Part shown: piece by piece, positions 6,802 to 16,036 of the stretch
Numbering within the stretch: position 1 is the stretch's first letter
Layout of the letters: every line of letters starts with the position of its first letter
Assembly (NCBI GenBank): GCA_029975475.1
Contig: JARKPB010000008.1
Span: 1,178,001 to 1,242,000 of the forward strand
DNA: 64,000 nt
Direction of reading: 5' to 3'
DNA from: Anaerolineaceae bacterium
GTDB lineage: Bacteria; Chloroflexota; Anaerolineae; Anaerolineales; Anaerolineaceae
Made by a program: the position numbers and the translations under genes
The notes under the pieces: generated by a model
Database searches by the model: none
What the model saw: the letters and a program-made list of their open reading frames with translations, nothing else
What the model was told of the DNA's origin: nothing

Positions 6802-8070
6802 TTATGTTCGGAAGACGTTTTTCGCACCGGTAACCTGGGCCGAATTCAGCGGCAGGATAAACATAAACTTACTCCCCCTGCCTTCAACACTTTCGACCCA
6901 GATTCGGCCGCCGTGCAGTTCGATCATCTCCTTGGCGATGGATAAACCCAGCCCCATGCCGCCGTGGTGGCGGGTAAGATGCTTTTCCACCTGATAAAAC
7001 CGTTTGAAAATCTGATCTTGTTCTTCCAGCGGAATACCCACACCGTTGTCCGCAACCGTGATCTTGATGTAACCGGGAACCTGCTCAGCTTTTGCCCTGA
7101 CAACTCCCCCTTCATTGTTAAAGATAATCGCATTTTTAATCAGGTTGCCAACGATGACTTCCAGTTTTTCCGGGTCAGCTTCCACGACCAGTGGAATCGT
7201 TCCAACTTCAGCGCTGAGAGATATATTTTTTTCTTTCGCAAAGGGTTGATGAGCGTTTACGGCGGACTGAATCAGAGTGTTGATCGATATTTTCTTCTTG
7301 CGAAGGCGGTACAACCCTTGTTCCAGCAGGTCAGAGTCCGTGAATTGCTCAATGACTTCCTTCAGGCGCATCGCGTTGCGCAGGATGACATCAACATCTG
7401 GTTTTTGCTCTTCAGATGCCGATTCCGATAAAAAAGTGGCGTGGCCAATCACCAGTCCCAGGGGCGTGCGCAATTCGTGACTGGCGATCGCGATAAAATC
7501 GCTTTTTAGCCGTTCCAGTTCAGTAACCTTCTGTTCGGCCAGGCGGGTATCTTCTTCCAGGCTGTGGTTACTAATTGCCATTCCAACCTGAGAAGCCAGA
7601 ATTTCAAGCGCACTGACGTCTTCCAGCGTGTAATGCGCATCCCTGGCTTTATTGATCGATTCAAAAACGCCGATGGTTTTTCCGCGAAACACGATGGGCA
7701 CCGCGAGAATGGATTGTGTGCCTTCGTTTAATTCGCGGTCAACCACTCGAAAAATGCGGTCGTCTTTATCTCCGTGGTGGAGGGTCATCGCTTCGCCGTT
7801 GGCGTACACCCAGCCAGCGATACTTCTTTCCAGGGGAACGCCGATATTTTTAAGCTTATCCAGCTGATACCAGGGTCCGGCCAGAAAGCGCAGCACCTGA
7901 TTTTCTGGGTCGAACACAAGAATAGAGGAGCTTTCGCTTTCGGTGATATCCGAAGCAAACTCGACCGCGCAATTCAGGAACGGCTCCAGTTCCAGGTTGG
8001 AGCTTAATGTTTTGCAAAATTCGAGTAAACTTTCCAGACGGCGAGTATAATTGATAGATACGGGATCCAT
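6802..8070 (-). CDS. GAF-domain sensor histidine kinase (cytosolic)
   Basis: 422 residues with no membrane helices. Residues about 28-168 form a GAF domain, which binds small ligands or senses redox or light in other kinases. A short coiled coil leads to the dimerisation helix with the H-box SHELRTPL (His198). The ATPase domain follows, with N-box NLIKNAIIF, G1 VADNGVGIP, and G2 GMGLGLSIAKEMIELHGG. It should autophosphorylate on His198 and pass phosphate to a response regulator, but no regulator gene is adjacent, so it is an orphan here. The ATG follows GGAGC, and an extended -10 box lies 27 bases upstream. Confidence 0.92.
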   Translation of the reverse strand: MDPVSINYTRRLESLLEFCKTLSSNLELEPFLNCAVEFASDITESESSSILVFDPENQVLRFLAGPWYQLDKLKNIGVPLERSIAGWVYANGEAMTLHHGDKDDRIFRVVDRELNEGTQSILAVPIVFRGKTIGVFESINKARDAHYTLEDVSALEILASQVGMAISNHSLEEDTRLAEQKVTELERLKSDFIAIASHELRTPLGLVIGHATFLSESASEEQKPDVDVILRNAMRLKEVIEQFTDSDLLEQGLYRLRKKKISINTLIQSAVNAHQPFAKEKNISLSAEVGTIPLVVEADPEKLEVIVGNLIKNAIIFNNEGGVVRAKAEQVPGYIKITVADNGVGIPLEEQDQIFKRFYQVEKHLTRHHGGMGLGLSIAKEMIELHGGRIWVESVEGRGSKFMFILPLNSAQVTGAKNVFRT

Positions 8071-8096
8071 TGAGCTTGCTCCCCGGCAGTAAAGAA

Positions 8097-8105
8097 ATTA
8101 TAGCA
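8097..8105 (-). promoter_or_regulatory. Extended -10 promoter of the GAF kinase
   Basis: On the minus strand TGC precedes TATAAT (ATTATA at 8097-8102 on the plus strand), giving an extended -10 element. No good -35 box is seen. The predicted leader is about 20 bases. Confidence 0.55.
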
Positions 8106-8151
8106 TAGCAGCGTATGCGAACATACCAATAAAATTGACAGGAGATGGTTT

Positions 8152-9228
8152 ATGAGCGACAAAAAAGTTCGGGTGGCAATCATCGGGGTAGGCAATTGCG
8201 CTTCCTCTTTTATTCAGGGCGTACACTACTACCGAAATGCCGCAGACAATGACCGGGTGCCCGGCCTCATGCATGTCAACCTTGGCGGCTATCATATCAG
8301 CGACATCGAATTCACCGCAGCATTCGACGTGGTTGACACCAAGGTCGGGTTAGACCTCTCAGAGGCCATTTTTGCCTATCCCAACAACACGTACAAATTC
8401 ACCGACGTTCCGAAATTAAACGTCCCGGTGCAGCGAGGGATGACTCACGACGGGCTGGGGAAATACCTCTCCCAGATCCTGAAGAAAGCCCCCGGACCAA
8501 CCGCCGACATCGTGAAAATTCTCAAAGAAACCAAGACCGATGTGGTTGTCAGTTATCTGCCCGTTGGCTCAGAAATGGCCACCAAATGGTATGTTGAGCA
8601 GATCCTTGAAGCCGGCTGCGGTTTTGTGAATGCGATCCCGGTTTTCATCGCGTCTTCGGAATACTGGGCTGAACGGTTCCGCGCCCGCGGGCTGCCGATC
8701 ATTGGCGATGATATCAAGAGTCAGGTTGGCGCGACCATCCTTCACCGCGTGCTGACCAGCCTGTTTGTTGACCGTGGAGTTCGCCTGGATCGAACCTACC
8801 AGCTGAATTTTGGCGGCAATACCGATTTCATGAACATGCTGGAGCGCGAACGGCTGGAATCCAAGAAGATTTCAAAAACCGGCGCGGTCACTTCCATGCT
8901 TCCTTATCAGCTGCATGAGGACAATATCCACGTCGGACCTTCTGACTATGTGCCCTGGCTCACCGACCGTAAATGGTGCTACCTGCGCATGGAAGGCACG
9001 ACCTTCGGGGATGTTCCATTGAACCTGGAAGCAAAACTGGAAGTCTGGGATTCTCCCAACTCTGCCGGGGTGATTATTGACGCGGTGCGCTGCTGCAAGC
9101 TGGCGCTTGACCGCGGGATCAGCGGGCCGGTGTACGGACCGGCTTCATATTTCATGAAGACCCCGCCGAAGCAGTACAAAGATGACGTCGCCCGCGAGAT
9201 GACCGAATCCTTTATTCGGGGCGAGTAA
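8152..9228 (+). CDS. ino1: myo-Inositol-1-phosphate synthase
   Basis: A 358-residue NAD-dependent enzyme that converts glucose 6-phosphate to myo-inositol 3-phosphate, the first step to inositol lipids and inositol-based osmolytes. Motifs are the N-terminal dinucleotide loop [14 protein letters not shown], then [12 protein letters not shown], then [12 protein letters not shown], then [11 protein letters not shown] followed by [10 protein letters not shown], with the conserved active-site lysines. Length matches the short actinobacterial and archaeal form and not the 500-residue eukaryotic form. The ATG follows AGGAG. A terminator ends the gene, so it is probably monocistronic. Confidence 0.93.
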
Positions 9229-9243
9229 GGCTGAACGGACCAG

Positions 9244-9288
9244 AAACCGGAGGATTTTGCCATCTTAACGCACGATCCTCCGGTTTTT
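9244..9288 (+). terminator. Intrinsic terminator of ino1
   Basis: AAACCGGAGGAT (9244-9255) pairs with ATCCTCCGGTTT (9275-9286), followed by a T-run. The stem is 12 bp and perfect, with a 19-base loop. Confidence 0.88.
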
Positions 9289-9298
9289 CTATCCTCCC

Positions 9299-9652
9299 AT
9301 GGAAACGTATCCCTGCATCTTCTGTAAAATTGCCGCAGGCAGCGCTCCGGCAAAAATCGTCTATCAAGACGCGGAAATCACCGCATTTTATGACCGCCAC
9401 CCGCGCGCGCCGGTTCACGTGCTGATCATCCCCAACCGGCATATTGACTCGGCGAATGACCTGAGCGAATCCGACGCGGCTTTAATCGGCCGCATGTTTC
9501 TCACCGCAGTCCGTCTGGCGGGAGATCACCGGATCGCAGAGAATGGCTACCGCCTGATTCTTAACACCGGGCGGGATGGCGGTCAAACGGTGCCCCACCT
9601 GCATCTGCATTTGCTGGGAGGGCAGAGAATCCATCTGGGGTTAAATCATTGA
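9299..9652 (+). CDS. HIT family hydrolase/nucleotidyltransferase
   Basis: 117 residues. The N-terminal CIFCKIAAGSAPAK and the C-terminal HIT triad HLHLHLLGG identify a histidine-triad (Hint branch) protein, which hydrolyses nucleoside phosphoramidates or related compounds. The motif PVHVLIIPNRHI is also typical. The stop overlaps the TTG start of the next lipoprotein gene, suggesting coupling. It starts 10 bases after the ino1 terminator T-run; no separate promoter was recognised with confidence. Confidence 0.92.
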   Translation: METYPCIFCKIAAGSAPAKIVYQDAEITAFYDRHPRAPVHVLIIPNRHIDSANDLSESDAALIGRMFLTAVRLAGDHRIAENGYRLILNTGRDGGQTVPHLHLHLLGGQRIHLGLNH

Positions 9653-11157
9653 ATCGAACCCGCAAGCTTGTTGGCACGGTAATCTGGCTGGCGGCGGTAT
9701 GGTTGACAGCCTGTGTCAGACCGTCAGCGCCTTATGAGCCGTTCGCGCCAAACAGCGGCGCTGAGAATACACCGGGCGAGTCAAACCTGCCGTTTACGCT
9801 GCCGACTCGCGATCCGTCCCAGCCCCTGCCCACCCCGGACGCACCGCACGCCCTTCCAACTCTGCGCGCAGAACCGATTCAATACACAGTTAAATCCGGG
9901 GATACCCTCGGATCGATCGCCCGCGCTTATCAGATTCCCATGCAGCGCATCATTGCAGAAAATCAGATCGCCAACCCCAACCTGATCAATCCGGGACAAA
10001 CATTCATCATTCCAGCTCCCATTCCGGATGGAACGGCTTCGGGTTTCAAGATGATTCCGGACTCTGAACTGGTATTTAGCCCAACCAGCGCTTTGCTTGA
10101 CCTGGAAACGTTCATCGCTTCCAGCGGCGGTTACCTGAGCAAATATTCCGAAGAAATCGGAGAAGAAAAATACAGCGGGGTGGAAATTGTTAACTTAATC
10201 TCCCGGTATTTTTCGGTCAACCCCCGACTGCTGCTGGCATTGCTGGAATACCAGTCCGGCTGGTTAAGTAACCCCGAACCAGATGAGGTTAATAGAATTT
10301 ACCCGATGGGATGGGCAGACCCCGGCCGCAAGGATCTCTATCGTCAGCTGGCCTGGGCAGCCAATCAACTCAACGGGGGATATTACCTGTGGAAAATCAA
10401 CGGTCTAGGAGCGTATACGCTCGCAGACGGGACAATCCTACGTCCTGATCCAACCATCAACGCTGGAACCGCGGCGGTGCAGTACCTGTTTTCGCTCTTA
10501 TTCGACCGTCAGGCATTTGAAAGCGCTGTAAGCCAGGATGGGTTTTTCGCTCAATTTGAAAAAATGTTTGGATATCCATTTGATTACACCTATGAGGTCA
10601 TCCCGGCGGATCTGCAGCAGCCCCCCATGCATCTGCCGTTTTCTGAGGGGGAAACCTGGTCTTTTACCGGGGGTCCGCACGGCGGTTGGGGAGACGGTTC
10701 AGCCTGGGCCGCGATTGACTTCGCCCCGCCCGGGAAAGGTAAGGGATGCGCAGAAAGCGACGCCTGGGTTACCGCGGTGGCAGACGGAAAAGTAATCCGC
10801 GTGGATACCGGTGTGGTGATCCTTGACCTTGACACGGATGGTTACGAACAGACGGGCTGGACGGTTCTGTACCTGCATATTGCCACAAAAGATCGAGTGC
10901 CGTTAAATGCGCTGGTTAAAGCCGGCGATCGGATTGGCCATCCCTCCTGTGAGGGCGGCGTCTCAAATGGAACCCATGTCCATCTCGCCAGAAGGTATAA
11001 TGGAGAATGGATTGCTGCGGATGGACCGATCCCATTTAACCTGGATGGTTGGATATCCGCAGGATATGGAACCGAGTACAACGGAAGTATGACACGTGAT
11101 GGAAAAGTGGTCGAAGCCTGGGAAATTTTTACCCCAGCCAACCAGATCAGCCGGTAA
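9649..11157 (+). CDS. LysM-M23 lipoprotein 1 (putative cell-wall hydrolase)
   Basis: 502 residues, starting at TTG that overlaps the HIT stop. A signal peptide ends in lipobox LTAC (Cys22). A Pro/Thr-rich linker leads to a LysM domain (about residues 78-122, YTVKSGDTLGSIARAY) that should bind peptidoglycan. Residues about 150-310 are helical, with SVNPRLLLALLEYQSGW, resembling the catalytic-Glu helix of lytic transglycosylases. The C-terminal M23-like domain has GGPH, AAIDFAP and THVHLAR. The usual H-x3-D zinc motif is replaced by H-x12-D, and a DLDTDG calcium-type loop is inserted. First of three tandem paralogues. Confidence 0.85.
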   Translation: MNRTRKLVGTVIWLAAVWLTACVRPSAPYEPFAPNSGAENTPGESNLPFTLPTRDPSQPLPTPDAPHALPTLRAEPIQYTVKSGDTLGSIARAYQIPMQRIIAENQIANPNLINPGQTFIIPAPIPDGTASGFKMIPDSELVFSPTSALLDLETFIASSGGYLSKYSEEIGEEKYSGVEIVNLISRYFSVNPRLLLALLEYQSGWLSNPEPDEVNRIYPMGWADPGRKDLYRQLAWAANQLNGGYYLWKINGLGAYTLADGTILRPDPTINAGTAAVQYLFSLLFDRQAFESAVSQDGFFAQFEKMFGYPFDYTYEVIPADLQQPPMHLPFSEGETWSFTGGPHGGWGDGSAWAAIDFAPPGKGKGCAESDAWVTAVADGKVIRVDTGVVILDLDTDGYEQTGWTVLYLHIATKDRVPLNALVKAGDRIGHPSCEGGVSNGTHVHLARRYNGEWIAADGPIPFNLDGWISAGYGTEYNGSMTRDGKVVEAWEIFTPANQISR

Positions 11158-12733
11158 GCTGCTTAGCGGTGTAATTTCCGCATTTCTGGCAGGGATGGTT
11201 ATCTCCGGCTGCGTCCGGCCCTATGTCAGCACCTTTGAACGAACCGCAACCGCAGTCGCCCATAATCCACCGGCTTTGGGAGGCGGCGAGGAAGTCGACC
11301 TGCCTTCGCCGTCCCTGCCGGTTGACACCCAGGTTCCAACCGTGGTAGAGGGCAGCCTCGACCAGCCCATTCCAACCCCGGAGGCGACCGCCATCCCCAC
11401 GCCGCTGCCAACGCTTTCTACTGCTCAGCCGCCTCTGATTTATACCACGCAGGCTGGCGATTTCCTGCAGGCGCTGGCCGCCCGTTTTGGAGTCACCCCC
11501 GGCCAGATCATCAGCGATACCGCCTTTGAGCCACAGGAACTCATTCCGCCCGGCACGATTCTCTACATCCCGGATGTGCTGGGCGATCACACGCCAACCA
11601 CCACCATTTTGCCTGATTCTGAAATTGTTTTCTCTCCCTCCGCGCTGGATTTTGATATCGAACAATTTGTCAGGGATGCGGGGGGATATTTGCAGGATTA
11701 TCGCGAGTATCTGAGCAGCGGGTGGGCCAGCGGGGCAGAGGTAATCGAACGCGTCGCGATCGAAAATTCTATCAATCCCCGCATTCTGCTCGCCCTGGTT
11801 GAATATCAGAGCAAATGGGTCTACGGCCAGCCGGCCAATCTCGCCGATACCGATTATCCGATGGGGTACGTCAACCCGCAATATCCGCGCCTGTACCGGC
11901 AGCTTTCCTGGGCAGTATCGCAGCTGTCAATCGGATATTACGGCTGGCGGGCTGGGATTCTCACTGAATTAACTTTTCCGGACGGCGAAAAACTGCGCAT
12001 CGCGCCTGAAGTAAACGCCGGCTCGGTCGCATTAAAATATCTGTTCTCCCGGCTTTACACGCGGGGGATGTGGAACCGGGCGATGTACGGAGAGGACAGC
12101 TTACCCGCATTGTTTGAGCGCATGTTTGGCGATCCCTGGCAGCGCGCGCAAACGGTAGAGCCGCTGTATCCGACAACCCTGAAACAGCCCGATTTTACGC
12201 TTCCCTATCTGCCCGGGCATGTATGGGAATATACAGGCGGGCCTCATTCCGCCTGGGGACCGGACGGAGCGCTGGCCGCGCTGGATTTTGCCCCCCCGAC
12301 AGACGGGGTAGGTTGTAAACCGACAAGTGAATGGGCGACCGCCATAGGGCCGGGTGTGGTCGTGCGGTCCTCAAACGGGGTGGTCGTCGTGGATATGGAC
12401 GGCGACGGCTACGAGCAGACCGGCTGGGCGATCCTCTACCTGCACATCGCCAGCGAAGGACGCGTCCCGGTCGGCACCACAGTCAGCGTCAATGACCGCA
12501 TTGGCAAACCATCCTGCGAGGGAGGGCGTTCAACCGGGACTCACCTGCACCTGGCCCGCAAGTACAACGGCGAATGGATCCTCGCGGATGGTCCGGTGCC
12601 TTTCACATTGAGCGGCTGGCGGGCGATTTCAGGCGGCCAACCTTATCTCGGGTACCTGGTCAAGGGCAACCTGGTGGTTGAAGCCAATCAGTTCGGTTCC
12701 TCAACCGCATCCATCCCACGTCCGAAAGAATAA
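11099..12733 (+). CDS. LysM-M23 lipoprotein 2 (putative cell-wall hydrolase)
   Basis: 544 residues, overlapping the previous gene by 59 bases. The start is uncertain: a GTG directly precedes the ATG, and a late ATG would remove most of the signal peptide. The lipobox is VISGC. A long Pro/Thr linker is followed by LysM (YTTQAGDFLQALAARF), a helical region with SINPRILLALVEYQSKW, and the M23-like domain with GGPH, AALDFAPP, the DMDGDG loop and GTHLHLAR. Order and spacing match the neighbours, so the three arose by duplication. It is predicted to act outside the membrane on peptidoglycan. Confidence 0.83.
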   Translation: MEKWSKPGKFLPQPTRSAGKLLSGVISAFLAGMVISGCVRPYVSTFERTATAVAHNPPALGGGEEVDLPSPSLPVDTQVPTVVEGSLDQPIPTPEATAIPTPLPTLSTAQPPLIYTTQAGDFLQALAARFGVTPGQIISDTAFEPQELIPPGTILYIPDVLGDHTPTTTILPDSEIVFSPSALDFDIEQFVRDAGGYLQDYREYLSSGWASGAEVIERVAIENSINPRILLALVEYQSKWVYGQPANLADTDYPMGYVNPQYPRLYRQLSWAVSQLSIGYYGWRAGILTELTFPDGEKLRIAPEVNAGSVALKYLFSRLYTRGMWNRAMYGEDSLPALFERMFGDPWQRAQTVEPLYPTTLKQPDFTLPYLPGHVWEYTGGPHSAWGPDGALAALDFAPPTDGVGCKPTSEWATAIGPGVVVRSSNGVVVVDMDGDGYEQTGWAILYLHIASEGRVPVGTTVSVNDRIGKPSCEGGRSTGTHLHLARKYNGEWILADGPVPFTLSGWRAISGGQPYLGYLVKGNLVVEANQFGSSTASIPRPKE

Positions 12734-12741
12734 GTAGTTCA

Positions 12742-14229
12742 ATGTTTCCGTCTCGATTCTTTTCTCTATCGTTTACTTTGCTTGTCGTGGTCGGCATGCT
12801 GCTGTCCGCCTGCGCGCAGGCGAATCCGCCGGCCATGAATGAAAACCTGCCCGGCGGTTTGGATGAGCCTTCCGTTTCGAACCCGCAGGTCACTCCCCTG
12901 CCCACCCGACCGGTTTACGCCCCGGGCGAACTGGTTGACTACATCGCTCAAACCGGCGACACCCTTCCGGCGATTGCCAGTCATTTTAACACCACCGTAA
13001 AGGAGATTCTCGAAGCCAACCCGATCATCCCGAAGGACGCCACAACCATGCCGCCTGGTTTGCCGATGAAAATTCCGATTTATTACCGGCCGTTCTGGGG
13101 AAGTCCTTACCAGATCCTTCCAGACAGTTTATTTGTCAACGGGCCGGCTCAGCTTGACTTCAACGCGGTTGAATTTGTGGATTCGCAGCCCGGTTGGTTC
13201 AAGCACTATTCTTTCTTCTTGGGAAATGCTACCCGTCGGGGGGGTGAACTGATCAATTACATCGCAGACCAGTTTTCGATCAGTCCGCGTTTACTTCTGG
13301 CAATCCTTGAATATCTTTCCGGCGGTTTATCGCAGCCAGAAATACCTGAAAATGTCGATCGGTTTTTACTTTACCGAACCGATAATGAGCACCGAGCACT
13401 GGCCTTACAACTCGTGCAGCTGGCAAACACGCTGAATAATGGTTATTACGGCTGGCGTTCAGGCGCGCTGACCGAATTCTCGCGCAGCGATTCCAGCCTG
13501 GAGAGACCAGACCCGTGGCAGAATGCTGCCAGTGTCGCTTTGCAGTACACGTTTAGCCAGTTTATGGACAACCAGCGTTATTACCAGGCGATCCACGCCG
13601 AGGGACTTCAGAAGACGTATGAACACCTGTTTGGTAATCCATGGGAAGGAACCAGCGATCATATTCCGGGCAGCCTGACACAGCCCCAATTTTTACTACC
13701 TTTTCCGGCTGGTAAAACCTGGGCTTATACTGGCGGCCCGCACACCGGATGGGGCAGCGGCGCACCTTTCGCCGCGGTTGACTTTGCCCCGCTGGGATCA
13801 ATCGCTGGCTGCGGCATATCCAGCGAATTTGCCACTGCCATCGCGGACGGGGTGGTGACCCGCACAGGACCGGGTTACTTGACCCTGGACCTCGATGGGG
13901 ATGGAGATGACCGCACCGGGTGGGTCGTATTCTATCTTCACCTTTCCAGCACAGAGATGGTGAAAACCGGGACTGTGGTCAAAGCTGGAGATCCACTCGG
14001 GCATCCTTCCTGCGAGGGGGGAAACGCGACCGGCAGCCACGTGCATATTGCCCGTAAATATAACGGGGAATGGATCGCTGCTGATTCTGCCCTGCCATTT
14101 AACATGGAAGGCTGGGTGCCAATTAACGGATCAGTTCCGTACGAAGGGAAACTGACCCGTTACGGCCGTACGGTTATCGCCTGTGTGTGCGCCAATCAAT
14201 CCAGTCTGGTTACAGCCGGACAACCCTGA
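12742..14229 (+). CDS. LysM-M23 lipoprotein 3 (putative cell-wall hydrolase)
   Basis: 495 residues. The signal peptide ends in lipobox LSAC. The domains are LysM (YIAQTGDTLPAIASHF), a helical lytic-transglycosylase-like region with SISPRLLLAILEYLSGG, and an M23-like domain with GGPH, AAVDFAPL, the DLDGDGDD loop and GSHVHIARKY. It starts eight bases after paralogue 2 and is the most diverged of the set. The conserved His, Asp and HxH suggest an active metallopeptidase. It ends 17 bases before the MFS transporter start chosen here. Confidence 0.84.
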   Translation: MFPSRFFSLSFTLLVVVGMLLSACAQANPPAMNENLPGGLDEPSVSNPQVTPLPTRPVYAPGELVDYIAQTGDTLPAIASHFNTTVKEILEANPIIPKDATTMPPGLPMKIPIYYRPFWGSPYQILPDSLFVNGPAQLDFNAVEFVDSQPGWFKHYSFFLGNATRRGGELINYIADQFSISPRLLLAILEYLSGGLSQPEIPENVDRFLLYRTDNEHRALALQLVQLANTLNNGYYGWRSGALTEFSRSDSSLERPDPWQNAASVALQYTFSQFMDNQRYYQAIHAEGLQKTYEHLFGNPWEGTSDHIPGSLTQPQFLLPFPAGKTWAYTGGPHTGWGSGAPFAAVDFAPLGSIAGCGISSEFATAIADGVVTRTGPGYLTLDLDGDGDDRTGWVVFYLHLSSTEMVKTGTVVKAGDPLGHPSCEGGNATGSHVHIARKYNGEWIAADSALPFNMEGWVPINGSVPYEGKLTRYGRTVIACVCANQSSLVTAGQP

Positions 14230-14246
14230 ACACCAACCCTCAAAAC

Positions 14247-15569
14247 ATGATTAAGCACCCGGGTTTCAAAGCATTCAGCATCGTATGGACAGGACAGGTT
14301 TTTTCGCTGATTGGCACGGCGATGAGCGGCTTTTCGCTGGGCATCTGGGCCTGGCAAACCACTGAATCTGCCACCGCCCTGGCATTAATGGGCTTTTTTG
14401 GATTTGTGCCGCTGATCCTGTTTGGACCGTTCACCGGCGCGCTGGTTGACCGCTGGAATCGGAAACTGGTGATGATGTTGAGCGACCTCGCCAGCGGAGT
14501 AACCACCCTGATCGTTCTGATCCTGTATCTGGGAGGCAGCCTTCAAATCTGGCATCTGTATGCCCTGTCATTCTTCGCGGGTATTTTCCAGTCCTTCCAG
14601 TGGCCGGCTTACTCGGCAGCCATCACGCTCATGGTGCCAAAAGATCAGTATGTCCGGGCCAGCGGCATGATTTCACTGGCCGAATCGGGGTCAGGGATCC
14701 TGGCACCGATCTTCGCTGGTGCGCTGCTGGCGACAACCAGTTTAACCAGCATCCTGGTAATTGATCTGATTACCCTGGCGATCGCCATCACCGCCTTGCT
14801 CCTTGTTCGGATTCCTCAACCGCAAGAGACGCGTGAAGGTCAGGCAGGCAGGGGAAATTTGCTGGGCGAGGCGGTCTACGGGTTTCGTTATATTTTTGAA
14901 CGGCCAAGCCTGCTGGGTTTACAGCTGGTCTTTTTCTTTGGAAATTTCTTCAGCTCCTTTGGATATGCGGTCTTAAGCCCGATGATCCTGGCACGGTCTG
15001 GAAATAACGCCAACTTTTTGGCCTGGACAGAGTCTTCGATGGGTCTGGGCGGCGTTCTTGGTGGGTTAGCCATCACCGCCTGGGGAGGCCCGAAACGCAA
15101 AGTAGACGGCGTATTAATCGGATTTACCTTATCGGGATTGTTTTGCGTCCTTCTGGGCGCGGGCCGCAACCTGCCAGCCTGGCTGGCTGGGGGCTTCTTG
15201 AGTTCAATGGTAACGATTTTGATCAACAGTTCAAATCAGGCTATCTGGCAGGCGAAAGTGCCTCCGGACGTGCAGGGGCGGGTGTTCTCTGCAAGGCGGT
15301 TGATCGCACAGGTGGCTTCCCCGTTATCCATGCTGCTCGCTGGCCCCCTGGCCGACCGATTGATGACCCCTGGCTTGATTTCCGCGGATGCACCGATGGC
15401 GGCCAGTTTGGGGTGGGCAGCCGGTGTAGGCCCGGGCGCGGGGATGGGGGTTATGATCGCAGCAAGCGGTATTTTGACCCTACTGGCTGGTGTATCTGGT
15501 TATTTCTTCAAAGCAGTTCGGAATGCCGAATCCGTTCTACCGGATCATCAGGCTTTAATTAAATCATAA
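14247..15569 (+). CDS. MFS transporter (EntS/MFS_3-like exporter)
   Basis: 440 residues with about 12 membrane helices. The signature loop GPFTGALVDRWNRKLVMMLSD between helices 2 and 3 is the MFS motif A (G-x-L-x-D-R-x-x-R). The family resembles drug and siderophore exporters of the MFS_3 group; the substrate is unknown. The start was placed at the ATG giving a normal N-terminus; an upstream in-frame start would overlap lipoprotein 3 by 43 bases. It ends at an intrinsic terminator facing the osmC gene. Confidence 0.87.
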   Translation: MIKHPGFKAFSIVWTGQVFSLIGTAMSGFSLGIWAWQTTESATALALMGFFGFVPLILFGPFTGALVDRWNRKLVMMLSDLASGVTTLIVLILYLGGSLQIWHLYALSFFAGIFQSFQWPAYSAAITLMVPKDQYVRASGMISLAESGSGILAPIFAGALLATTSLTSILVIDLITLAIAITALLLVRIPQPQETREGQAGRGNLLGEAVYGFRYIFERPSLLGLQLVFFFGNFFSSFGYAVLSPMILARSGNNANFLAWTESSMGLGGVLGGLAITAWGGPKRKVDGVLIGFTLSGLFCVLLGAGRNLPAWLAGGFLSSMVTILINSSNQAIWQAKVPPDVQGRVFSARRLIAQVASPLSMLLAGPLADRLMTPGLISADAPMAASLGWAAGVGPGAGMGVMIAASGILTLLAGVSGYFFKAVRNAESVLPDHQALIKS

Positions 15570-15602
15570 ACGCGCAGCGGATAGCAGGATCGCCGCGCGT
15601 TT
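15568..15602. terminator. Bidirectional terminator between MFS gene and osmC-like gene
   Basis: AAACGCGCAGCG (15568-15579) pairs with CGCCGCGCGTTT (15591-15602) with one mismatch, in a 33-base gap-overlap between convergent genes. The T-run is short. Confidence 0.65.
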
Positions 15603-15616
15603 ATAACCCGTGTCAA

Positions 15617-16036
15617 TTAGCGCGCTTCCAGTATGGTAATTTTGTGAACGATCTCAGCTCCCGGACGCAGTGAGGCTGCAGCCGAGCAGTACTTGGTTTC
15701 AGAGAGTTCTACTGCCCGCTCGACAGCGGCAGGATCAACGGCATGGCCGGTGACAACATATTCGATCAATATTTTTGTGAAGCGTTTCGGGTGTTCACCG
15801 GCGCGCTCGGCATCGATCCGCACTTCAAAGGCGGTTACATTGACCTGCTTTTTCTTAAGGATGGAAATCACATCCATGGCGGTGCACCCGGCCAGACCAA
15901 CTGCCAGCAATTCCATCGGTCTTGAGCCAGTGTTTTGACCGCCGGCTTCTGGGGCAGCATCTAACGGGATTTCAAAGCCGCTCTCGGTGAAACCCGTGAA
16001 AGCCAGACCGCTTTTCCAGGTTACTTTGGCTTCCAT
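15617..16036 (-). CDS. OsmC family peroxiredoxin-like protein
   Basis: 139 residues. The two reactive cysteines of the OsmC/Ohr fold are in AGCTAMDV and KYCSAA. The motif RPMELLAVGLAGCTAMDV is typical of the YhfA branch, which reduces organic hydroperoxides or has unknown thiol chemistry. The ATG has a strong AGGAGGG that overlaps the stop of the disulfide oxidoreductase gene. The two genes together suggest a thiol-redox function at the end of the sigma-factor gene set. Confidence 0.9.
   Translation of the reverse strand: MEAKVTWKSGLAFTGFTESGFEIPLDAAPEAGGQNTGSRPMELLAVGLAGCTAMDVISILKKKQVNVTAFEVRIDAERAGEHPKRFTKILIEYVVTGHAVDPAAVERAVELSETKYCSAAASLRPGAEIVHKITILEAR

Follow-up and report, generated by a model that had tools for sequence, protein, structure and literature searches.

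Tandem LysM lipoproteins with an M23A-type peptidase domain and a lysozyme-like middle domain in an Anaerolineaceae genome

Among the M23 peptidases closest to the proteins described here, LasA, a member of M23A, has the motif H(x)12D, and Hx3D is typical of M23B, according to the portion of PMC9662197 drawn on here; the same portion reports that the His-Asp spacing varies within M23B too, as in the H(x)7D of gp13. For Blp, the zinc ligands given in the corresponding part of PMC9783410 are His22, Asp36 and His123. We describe three tandem genes, p1, p2 and p3, of an Anaerolineaceae bacterium (GenBank assembly GCA_029975475.1), found on the 64,000 nucleotides of contig JARKPB010000008.1 from position 1,178,001 to 1,242,000, a stretch that we call the window. 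Each gene encodes a protein with a lipobox, a LysM domain, a helical middle domain and an M23 domain, in that order. An original prediction made from the DNA letters had proposed this arrangement of three tandem lipoproteins, which the open reading frames (ORFs) and their alignment bear out, and it had taken the peptidase for a distinct M23 subfamily with a relocated zinc ligand. Because H(x)12D is the motif of LasA and M23A, the shifted ligand spacing is already published. The real departure from what is known is the lysozyme-like middle domain without the usual Glu.

The peptidase domains and their site residues

By sequence, profile, fold and tree, the peptidase domains of p1, p2 and p3 belong with M23A. 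The first phmmer matches of p3 are pseudoalterin (6ik4), Blp (8af1) and LasA (3it5), and in all three the His of GGPH falls on the His of the G-x-H motif. A profile of 42 M23 domains finds pseudoalterin at 1.6e-11, Blp at 2.9e-9 and LasA at 2.2e-8, with the best M23B structure found at 7.3e-5. This alignment, like that of the middle domain, takes every second row (42 of 84), and the alignment behind the structure model consists of 83 of 105 rows plus p1. The AlphaFold2 model of p1 residues 74-502, built on these 84 rows, has a predicted local distance difference test score (pLDDT) of 93.5. Compared by VIA with known structures, it gives Z scores of 20.1 for LasA, 19.8 for pseudoalterin and 19.0 for Blp, and the next row is at 12.8. 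The superpositions on these three structures cover 160-162 residues with a root-mean-square deviation of 2.3-2.4 A, and the aligned span, model residues 249/250-429, includes the C-terminal part of the M23A fold. His344 stands at the end of one strand of the model and Asp357 inside the next (strands 263-271 and 282-286 in model numbering), so the 12 residues between them are the turn that joins two successive strands.

In the M23 tree, the Anaerolineae domains fall together with Blp and pseudoalterin on one side of a branch with support 100/98, and the M23B rows fall on the opposite side; support becomes 100/99 once three long rows are omitted. The M23A references of this tree are Blp and pseudoalterin, without LasA, and its other rows comprise 18 of the 42 alignment rows, the two window proteins p2 and p3, 24 of the 28 rows from far relatives, and five of the six M23B loci of the same genome. 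These five M23B proteins sit apart from the side that holds the Anaerolineae domains.

The His of H-x3-D is absent, as had been noticed from the letters: four positions ahead of the Asp stand Trp in p1, Leu in p2 and Phe in p3, and HxH is intact. Alignment and superposition of the predicted model on the M23A structures support the further expectation that the GGPH His, the Asp and HxH form one intact site of M23 type. For conservation, a scan of genome contigs provided the best 80 of 582 confirmed loci; matches were confirmed with p1, hence all loci are of p1 type. Bellilinea caldifistulae, Longilinea arvoryzae and Levilinea saccharolytica are among the sources of these loci. They hold 80 copies of p1, 85 of p2 and 66 of p3, and the p3 counts rest on 65 of these 66 copies, one being below the profile threshold. 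The site set HDHHH is complete in 80/80 p1, 83/85 p2 (one has HDHNH and one is cut off) and 63/65 p3 (two are cut off). The His-Asp spacing is exactly 12 in all 80 p1 and all 65 p3 orthologues matched by the profile, so H-x12-D is no chance pattern in these two. Among the 85 p2 orthologues the spacing is 12 in 66, 13 in three, 20 in one, 21 in 14 and 24 in one. The prediction of exactly 12 residues thus holds in all three window proteins and fails as a general rule for p2, where the range is 12-24.

In 16 of the 85 p2 orthologues (for instance L128:2116-3852, L103:7132-8754, L117:4240-5916 and L084:7113-8798; handles are ours), inserts lengthen the turn between the putative zinc ligands to 20, 21 or 24 residues, and some of them bring an extra non-conserved His. 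A homologue from the same class (L049:3832-5412) has Ala for the GGPH His, Ser for the Asp and RVS for HxH. Its M23A domain is apparently dead, judging by these letters, and an intact M23A copy (L050) lies elsewhere in its genome.

The middle domain and the position of the GH23 Glu

Folded alone, the middle domain reaches a pLDDT of 94.4. A Pfam search with 42 members at E up to 10, under filters that drop most weak matches, gave nothing beyond five chance-like families at E 0.0048-0.23, and no member matched SLT or any other lysozyme-family entry; a search of PDB sequences with the middle domain gave no match. The resemblance appears in the comparisons of fold and of profiles. The top VIA rows are LytB (Z 8.7, 8.4 and 8.2), a phage Andhra tail-tip entry (8.0), MltC (7.7), goose lysozyme (7.6) and MltF (7.4), and the further rows listed, classed by name, we take to be mostly of the lysozyme superfamily. 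With hhalign, the middle domain aligns over 28 ungapped columns (P 9e-5) with 23 GH23 domains of relatives, which come from 23 of 30 loci, seven having given no motif; the M23 profile, used as control, gives a probability of 0.2. The catalytic Glu of the ES motif stands opposite p1 Gln202, and its Ser opposite Ser203. The central region had been predicted to be lysozyme-like, and Foldseek, VIA and hhalign against GH23 all return this resemblance; the modelled domain likely has a fold of the lysozyme or lytic transglycosylase kind.

Column counts were made over 262 rows (80 p1, 85 p2, 66 p3, 28 far relatives and the three window proteins). The GH23 catalytic Glu is replaced in 224 of them. The remaining 38, with Glu at 202, are 34 p2, one p3 and three far relatives, and neither p1 nor the window contributes any. 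In the window, p1 and p2 have Gln at this position and p3 has Leu, so that the Glu of the ES motif is found in none of the three. On these residues it is doubtful that the middle domain is a second wall-cutting domain in any of the three proteins, as had been suggested. Two residues before the canonical Glu column, position 200 is Glu or Asp in 256/262 rows. The six exceptions are all Gln: three p1 proteins (L065, L067 and L076), one p2 protein (L117) and two far relatives (L178 and L171). Of these, L117, L178 and L171 have Glu at 202. In L065, L067 and L076, Gln occupies 202 as well as 200, which leaves no acid at either place, and these three proteins speak against a necessary catalytic acid in the middle domain. 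On a quick tree of 86 rows, the split of p2 into Glu and non-Glu proteins requires four changes and forms few clusters; Glu is thus a lasting feature of some p2 proteins.

The middle domain is found beyond the trio. Of 301 genomes sampled from the phylum, 64 match its profile: 25/25 from the same family or order, 9/13 others from the same class, and 30/263 of the remainder. Proteins of about 540-1000 amino acids in the same phylum (L052 and L172 are examples) pair it with M23B. In L052, the homologous middle domain (profile E 3e-26) is placed before an M23 domain with GHDGWD, for which the closest structures are zoocin A, DipM and MepM-type, and LasA comes last of 38; L052 is the one M23B-type case searched in this way. 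Such relatives also carry extra domains, Golvesin_C in L052 and laminin-G in L165 and L172. In the M23 tree, 15 of the 24 rows from far relatives fall with M23B and nine on the M23A side. The approximately unbiased (AU) test rejects a tree in which all 44 fused M23 domains are forced into one group (p 0.00013); once the three long rows are omitted, a tree that unites the Anaerolineae with the M23B-type fused domains has p 0.026. Because long branches meet in these trees, an exchange of the peptidase domain during evolution is probable rather than proven; in addition, the composition of the two reference rows is unusual, and the grouping was defined only once the first tree had been seen. We considered a migration of the ligand from H-x3-D within one fused lineage, and think it unlikely given the same two p values.

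Other arrangements occur in the phylum. L178:1690-2913 has a related lysozyme-like domain with QKEQ, where the Glu is at the canonical place, together with Golvesin_C. It has no M23 match, its lysozyme-like part has no Pfam or NCBIfam name, and PDB sequences gave one chance match. In L171, a pattern search saw no M23 site. In two very long proteins (L051:2-4213 and L054:4144-9999), the M23 domain that comes after the middle domain clusters with those of Blp and pseudoalterin; in L054, CARDB, fn3 and what may be a beta-lactamase-like stretch come next.

Possible roles of the three proteins

We read p1-p3 as lipid-anchored, LysM-bearing M23A zinc endopeptidases that work on the cell's own wall, with a middle domain that is mostly a non-catalytic holder of glycan, and we give this reading a probability of roughly two in three. 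Where the wall faces the membrane, the lipid anchor and LysM would keep the protein in place. The lysozyme-like domain would grip or orient a glycan strand there and, instead of cutting it, bring the peptides attached to it within reach of the peptidase. In the M23A site, zinc would have the same ligands as in beta-lytic protease, namely the GGPH His, the Asp 12 residues on and, of the HxH pair, the second His; the site would cut a nearby peptide cross-link and so loosen the cell's own wall. The domain order, the M23A kinship, the full set of site residues, the likeness to the lysozyme fold, the replaced Glu and the conservation in the order come from computation, and from these we infer that the proteins bind zinc and act as peptidases, that the middle domain binds glycan and that the role lies in the own wall. 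The genome has two canonical SLT matches and other M23 proteins, so a lysozyme fold that does not cut would leave no gap in the set of tools. The M23A profile matches 121/121 sampled genomes of the order (all at least 90% complete), with at least three copies in 115 and two copies in six, and one of the genomes with this domain measures 1.7 Mb. Since the domain is present across the sampled order, even in so small a genome, we favour a role in the own wall over killing.

Several results weigh against this reading. Among characterised M23A enzymes, those nearest to p1-p3 are bacteriolytic proteases with other bacteria as their targets. The support for the fold of the middle domain is middling: the best Foldseek match is cod goose-type lysozyme at E 0.04, with none at 0.001; the best VIA Z, 8.7, is to be read beside the 7-8 that the tool calls typical for models without a clear match; and the hhalign probability for GH23 is 59%. 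Finally, the p2 proteins with Glu202, 34 of the 85 orthologues, may cut glycan, going by that residue. In an alternative reading the proteins are bifunctional, with an active lytic transglycosylase or muramidase that uses Glu200, or Glu202 in those p2 proteins that bear it. It would fit the near constancy of an acid at 200 (256/262), the clustering of the 34 canonical Glu on the p2 tree, and L178 and L171, which carry Glu at 202 and Gln at 200 where no M23 site is seen. However, Glu202 is missing from p1, p2 and p3 of the window alike, and the p1 proteins L065, L067 and L076 combine Gln at 200 and 202 with a complete M23 site. Glu200, two residues off on the same helix, should face another side, a GLMQ-like motif as in GH23 is not seen by eye, and the genome has its two canonical SLT matches for that job. 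We regard bifunctional enzymes as unlikely.

The proteins could also be weapons, held at the surface or released, that lyse other bacteria in the manner of LasA, Blp and pseudoalterin. The closest solved relatives are indeed bacteriolytic M23A proteases, and pseudoalterin kills Gram-positive bacteria (in the part of PMC6962226 used here), but the lipobox in all three proteins and the presence in 121/121 sampled genomes of the order, small ones included, make such a use quite improbable. Most improbable of all is the idea that the zinc ligand has truly moved and marks a new M23 subfamily. The absence in all three proteins of a His four before the Asp, the weak Pfam M23 scores and the spacing of 12-24 among p2 orthologues would suit it, but the arrangement is the published one of M23A (H(x)12D in the cited portion of PMC9662197; the Blp ligands in that of PMC9783410), in three solved structures the M23A His is the residue aligned with the GGPH His, M23A comes first in sequence, profile and fold comparisons, and the tree separates M23A from M23B at 100/98.

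Beyond these readings, the middle domain could be an unnamed Chloroflexota module of the lysozyme superfamily in which the acid has moved by two residues on the catalytic helix (Glu at 200, not 202). Such a module would stay the same while the wall peptidase joined to it is exchanged, being M23A in Anaerolineae and M23B in other parts of the phylum, and it would clamp the glycan, or cut it by means of the displaced acid, thus coupling engagement of the glycan to cleavage of the cross-link. We offer this tentatively, as possible if somewhat doubtful.

To our knowledge, the wall enzymes of Chloroflexota have been little studied. The shifted ligand is a false lead that can now be removed, and the lysozyme-like domain that travels with M23 in this phylum is a better one. 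If it is a true glycan clamp, it provides a testable model for the placement of a cross-link peptidase in the Chloroflexota wall. If the own-wall reading of p1-p3 is right, M23A, described as bacteriolytic in those parts of the cited papers that we draw on, would also have a place in everyday wall maintenance.

Gene layout and comparison with known systems

The coordinates of the three genes and their features are given in Table 1. A HIT-family gene (Pfam) lies at 9299-9652, and its stop codon shares bases with the TTG start of p1, which suggests coupled translation. As called, p2 overlaps the end of p1, and p3 begins 8 bases past p2; with such overlaps and so short a gap, p1-p2-p3 are likely one transcript. 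In a scan of 8000-15700 for promoters and terminators, nothing rose beyond shuffles (one promoter-like site vs 4.6; 11 terminator-like sites vs 8.9). Identity to p1 is 45% for p2 and 41% for p3. The residues invariant in the alignment of the three are the lipobox Cys, the LysM Gly/Asp, PR-L-LA--EY-x-S, GGPH, the Asp, Tyr-Leu-His and HxH. Lipoproteins were called by the lipobox rule, and by eye each protein has an N-terminal hydrophobic stretch and a lipobox Cys (LTAC, ISGC and LSAC in p1, p2 and p3). LysM (PF01476) is above its curated cut-off of 20.9 bits in all three (59.1, 22.1 and 27.7). For Pfam Peptidase_M23 the scores are 28.3, 24.9 and 35.1 bits, and p3 alone passes the cut-off of 28.7.

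The order p1-p2-p3 is kept in 66 of the 80 loci, eight of which have a second p2. Fewer than 800 bases remain beyond the last gene in 11 of the 14 loci without p3; the other three have room and yet no adjacent p3 (L072 has p1 and p2, L081 and L092 have p1 alone). Upstream of p1 the order is less fixed: 73 loci have more than 1,600 bases there, and these include a HIT gene in 23 and an inositol-phosphate synthase gene in 17.

Table 1. Features of p1, p2 and p3, in window coordinates.
Feature	Position	Strand	Details and basis
p1 lipoprotein, LysM - lysozyme-like - M23A	9649..11157	+	502 amino acids, TTG start; ORF, Pfam, model pLDDT 93.5
p1 lipobox Cys22 (LTAC)	9712..9714	+	sequence
p1 LysM	9883..10014	+	PF01476, residues 79-122, E 4e-16
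p1 lysozyme-like middle domain, residues 136-316	10054..10596	+	model pLDDT 94.4, fold matches, no Pfam match
p1 Glu200	10246..10248	+	Glu or Asp in 256/262 rows
p1 Gln202, opposite GH23 catalytic Glu	10252..10254	+	hhalign, column counts
p1 M23A peptidase domain, residues 318-490	10600..11118	+	profile, fold comparison
p1 His344 of GGPH, putative zinc ligand	10678..10680	+	aligned with M23A His; invariant
p1 Asp357, putative zinc ligand	10717..10719	+	12 residues between Asp357 and His344
p1 HxH, His443 and His445	10975..10983	+	alignment, profile
p2 paralogue, same domain order	11096..12733	+	545 amino acids as called, GTG; called start provisional
p2 LysM, residues 116-159	11441..11572	+	Pfam
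p2 lysozyme-like middle domain, Gln at Glu position	11609..12148	+	profile match, residues 172-351
p2 M23A domain	12170..12685	+	profile match, residues 359-530
p3 paralogue, same domain order	12742..14229	+	495 amino acids, ATG
p3 LysM	12940..13080	+	Pfam covers residues 67-94 only; end at 113 judged from alignment
p3 lysozyme-like middle domain, Leu at Glu position	13117..13647	+	profile match, residues 126-302
p3 M23A domain	13663..14181	+	profile match, residues 308-480; phmmer to 6ik4, 8af1, 3it5

A literature search on Anaerolineae and Chloroflexi walls, on LasA, and on lytic transglycosylase pseudoenzymes with M23 and LysM returned no title describing this architecture among the matches listed. 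Described proteins resemble the trio domain by domain. In GH23, goose-type lysozyme and the GH73 enzyme LytB, the likeness to the middle domain is one of fold, and NPRLLLALLEYQS aligns with the catalytic helix of GH23; the middle domain differs in that the Glu is mostly replaced, the GLMQ-like motif is not seen by eye and Pfam gives no match. Proteins of the DipM, MepM/YebA and ShyA type also have LysM before M23, and likely remodel the wall. Their peptidase is M23B, for which Hx3D is typical (PMC9662197, same portion), in contrast to the H(x)12D and M23A scores of p1-p3. The L052 and L172 type of the phylum shares a homologous middle domain placed before M23, yet the peptidase is again M23B. 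The M23A proteins LasA (3it5), Blp (8af1) and pseudoalterin (6ik4) have in common with p1-p3 the H(x)12D motif (in the alignment with Blp the spacing is 13), the HxH motif and, immediately ahead of G-x-H-x-H, a C-[EN]-G-G stretch; the fold, too, agrees along the entire chain, C-terminal part included. Identity to these references is 21-24%, and 19 of the 85 p2 orthologues, unlike LasA, have 13-24 residues between His and Asp. Unlike the M23A references, p1-p3 are membrane lipoproteins that also bear LysM and a lysozyme-like domain, and they occur as a tandem of three.

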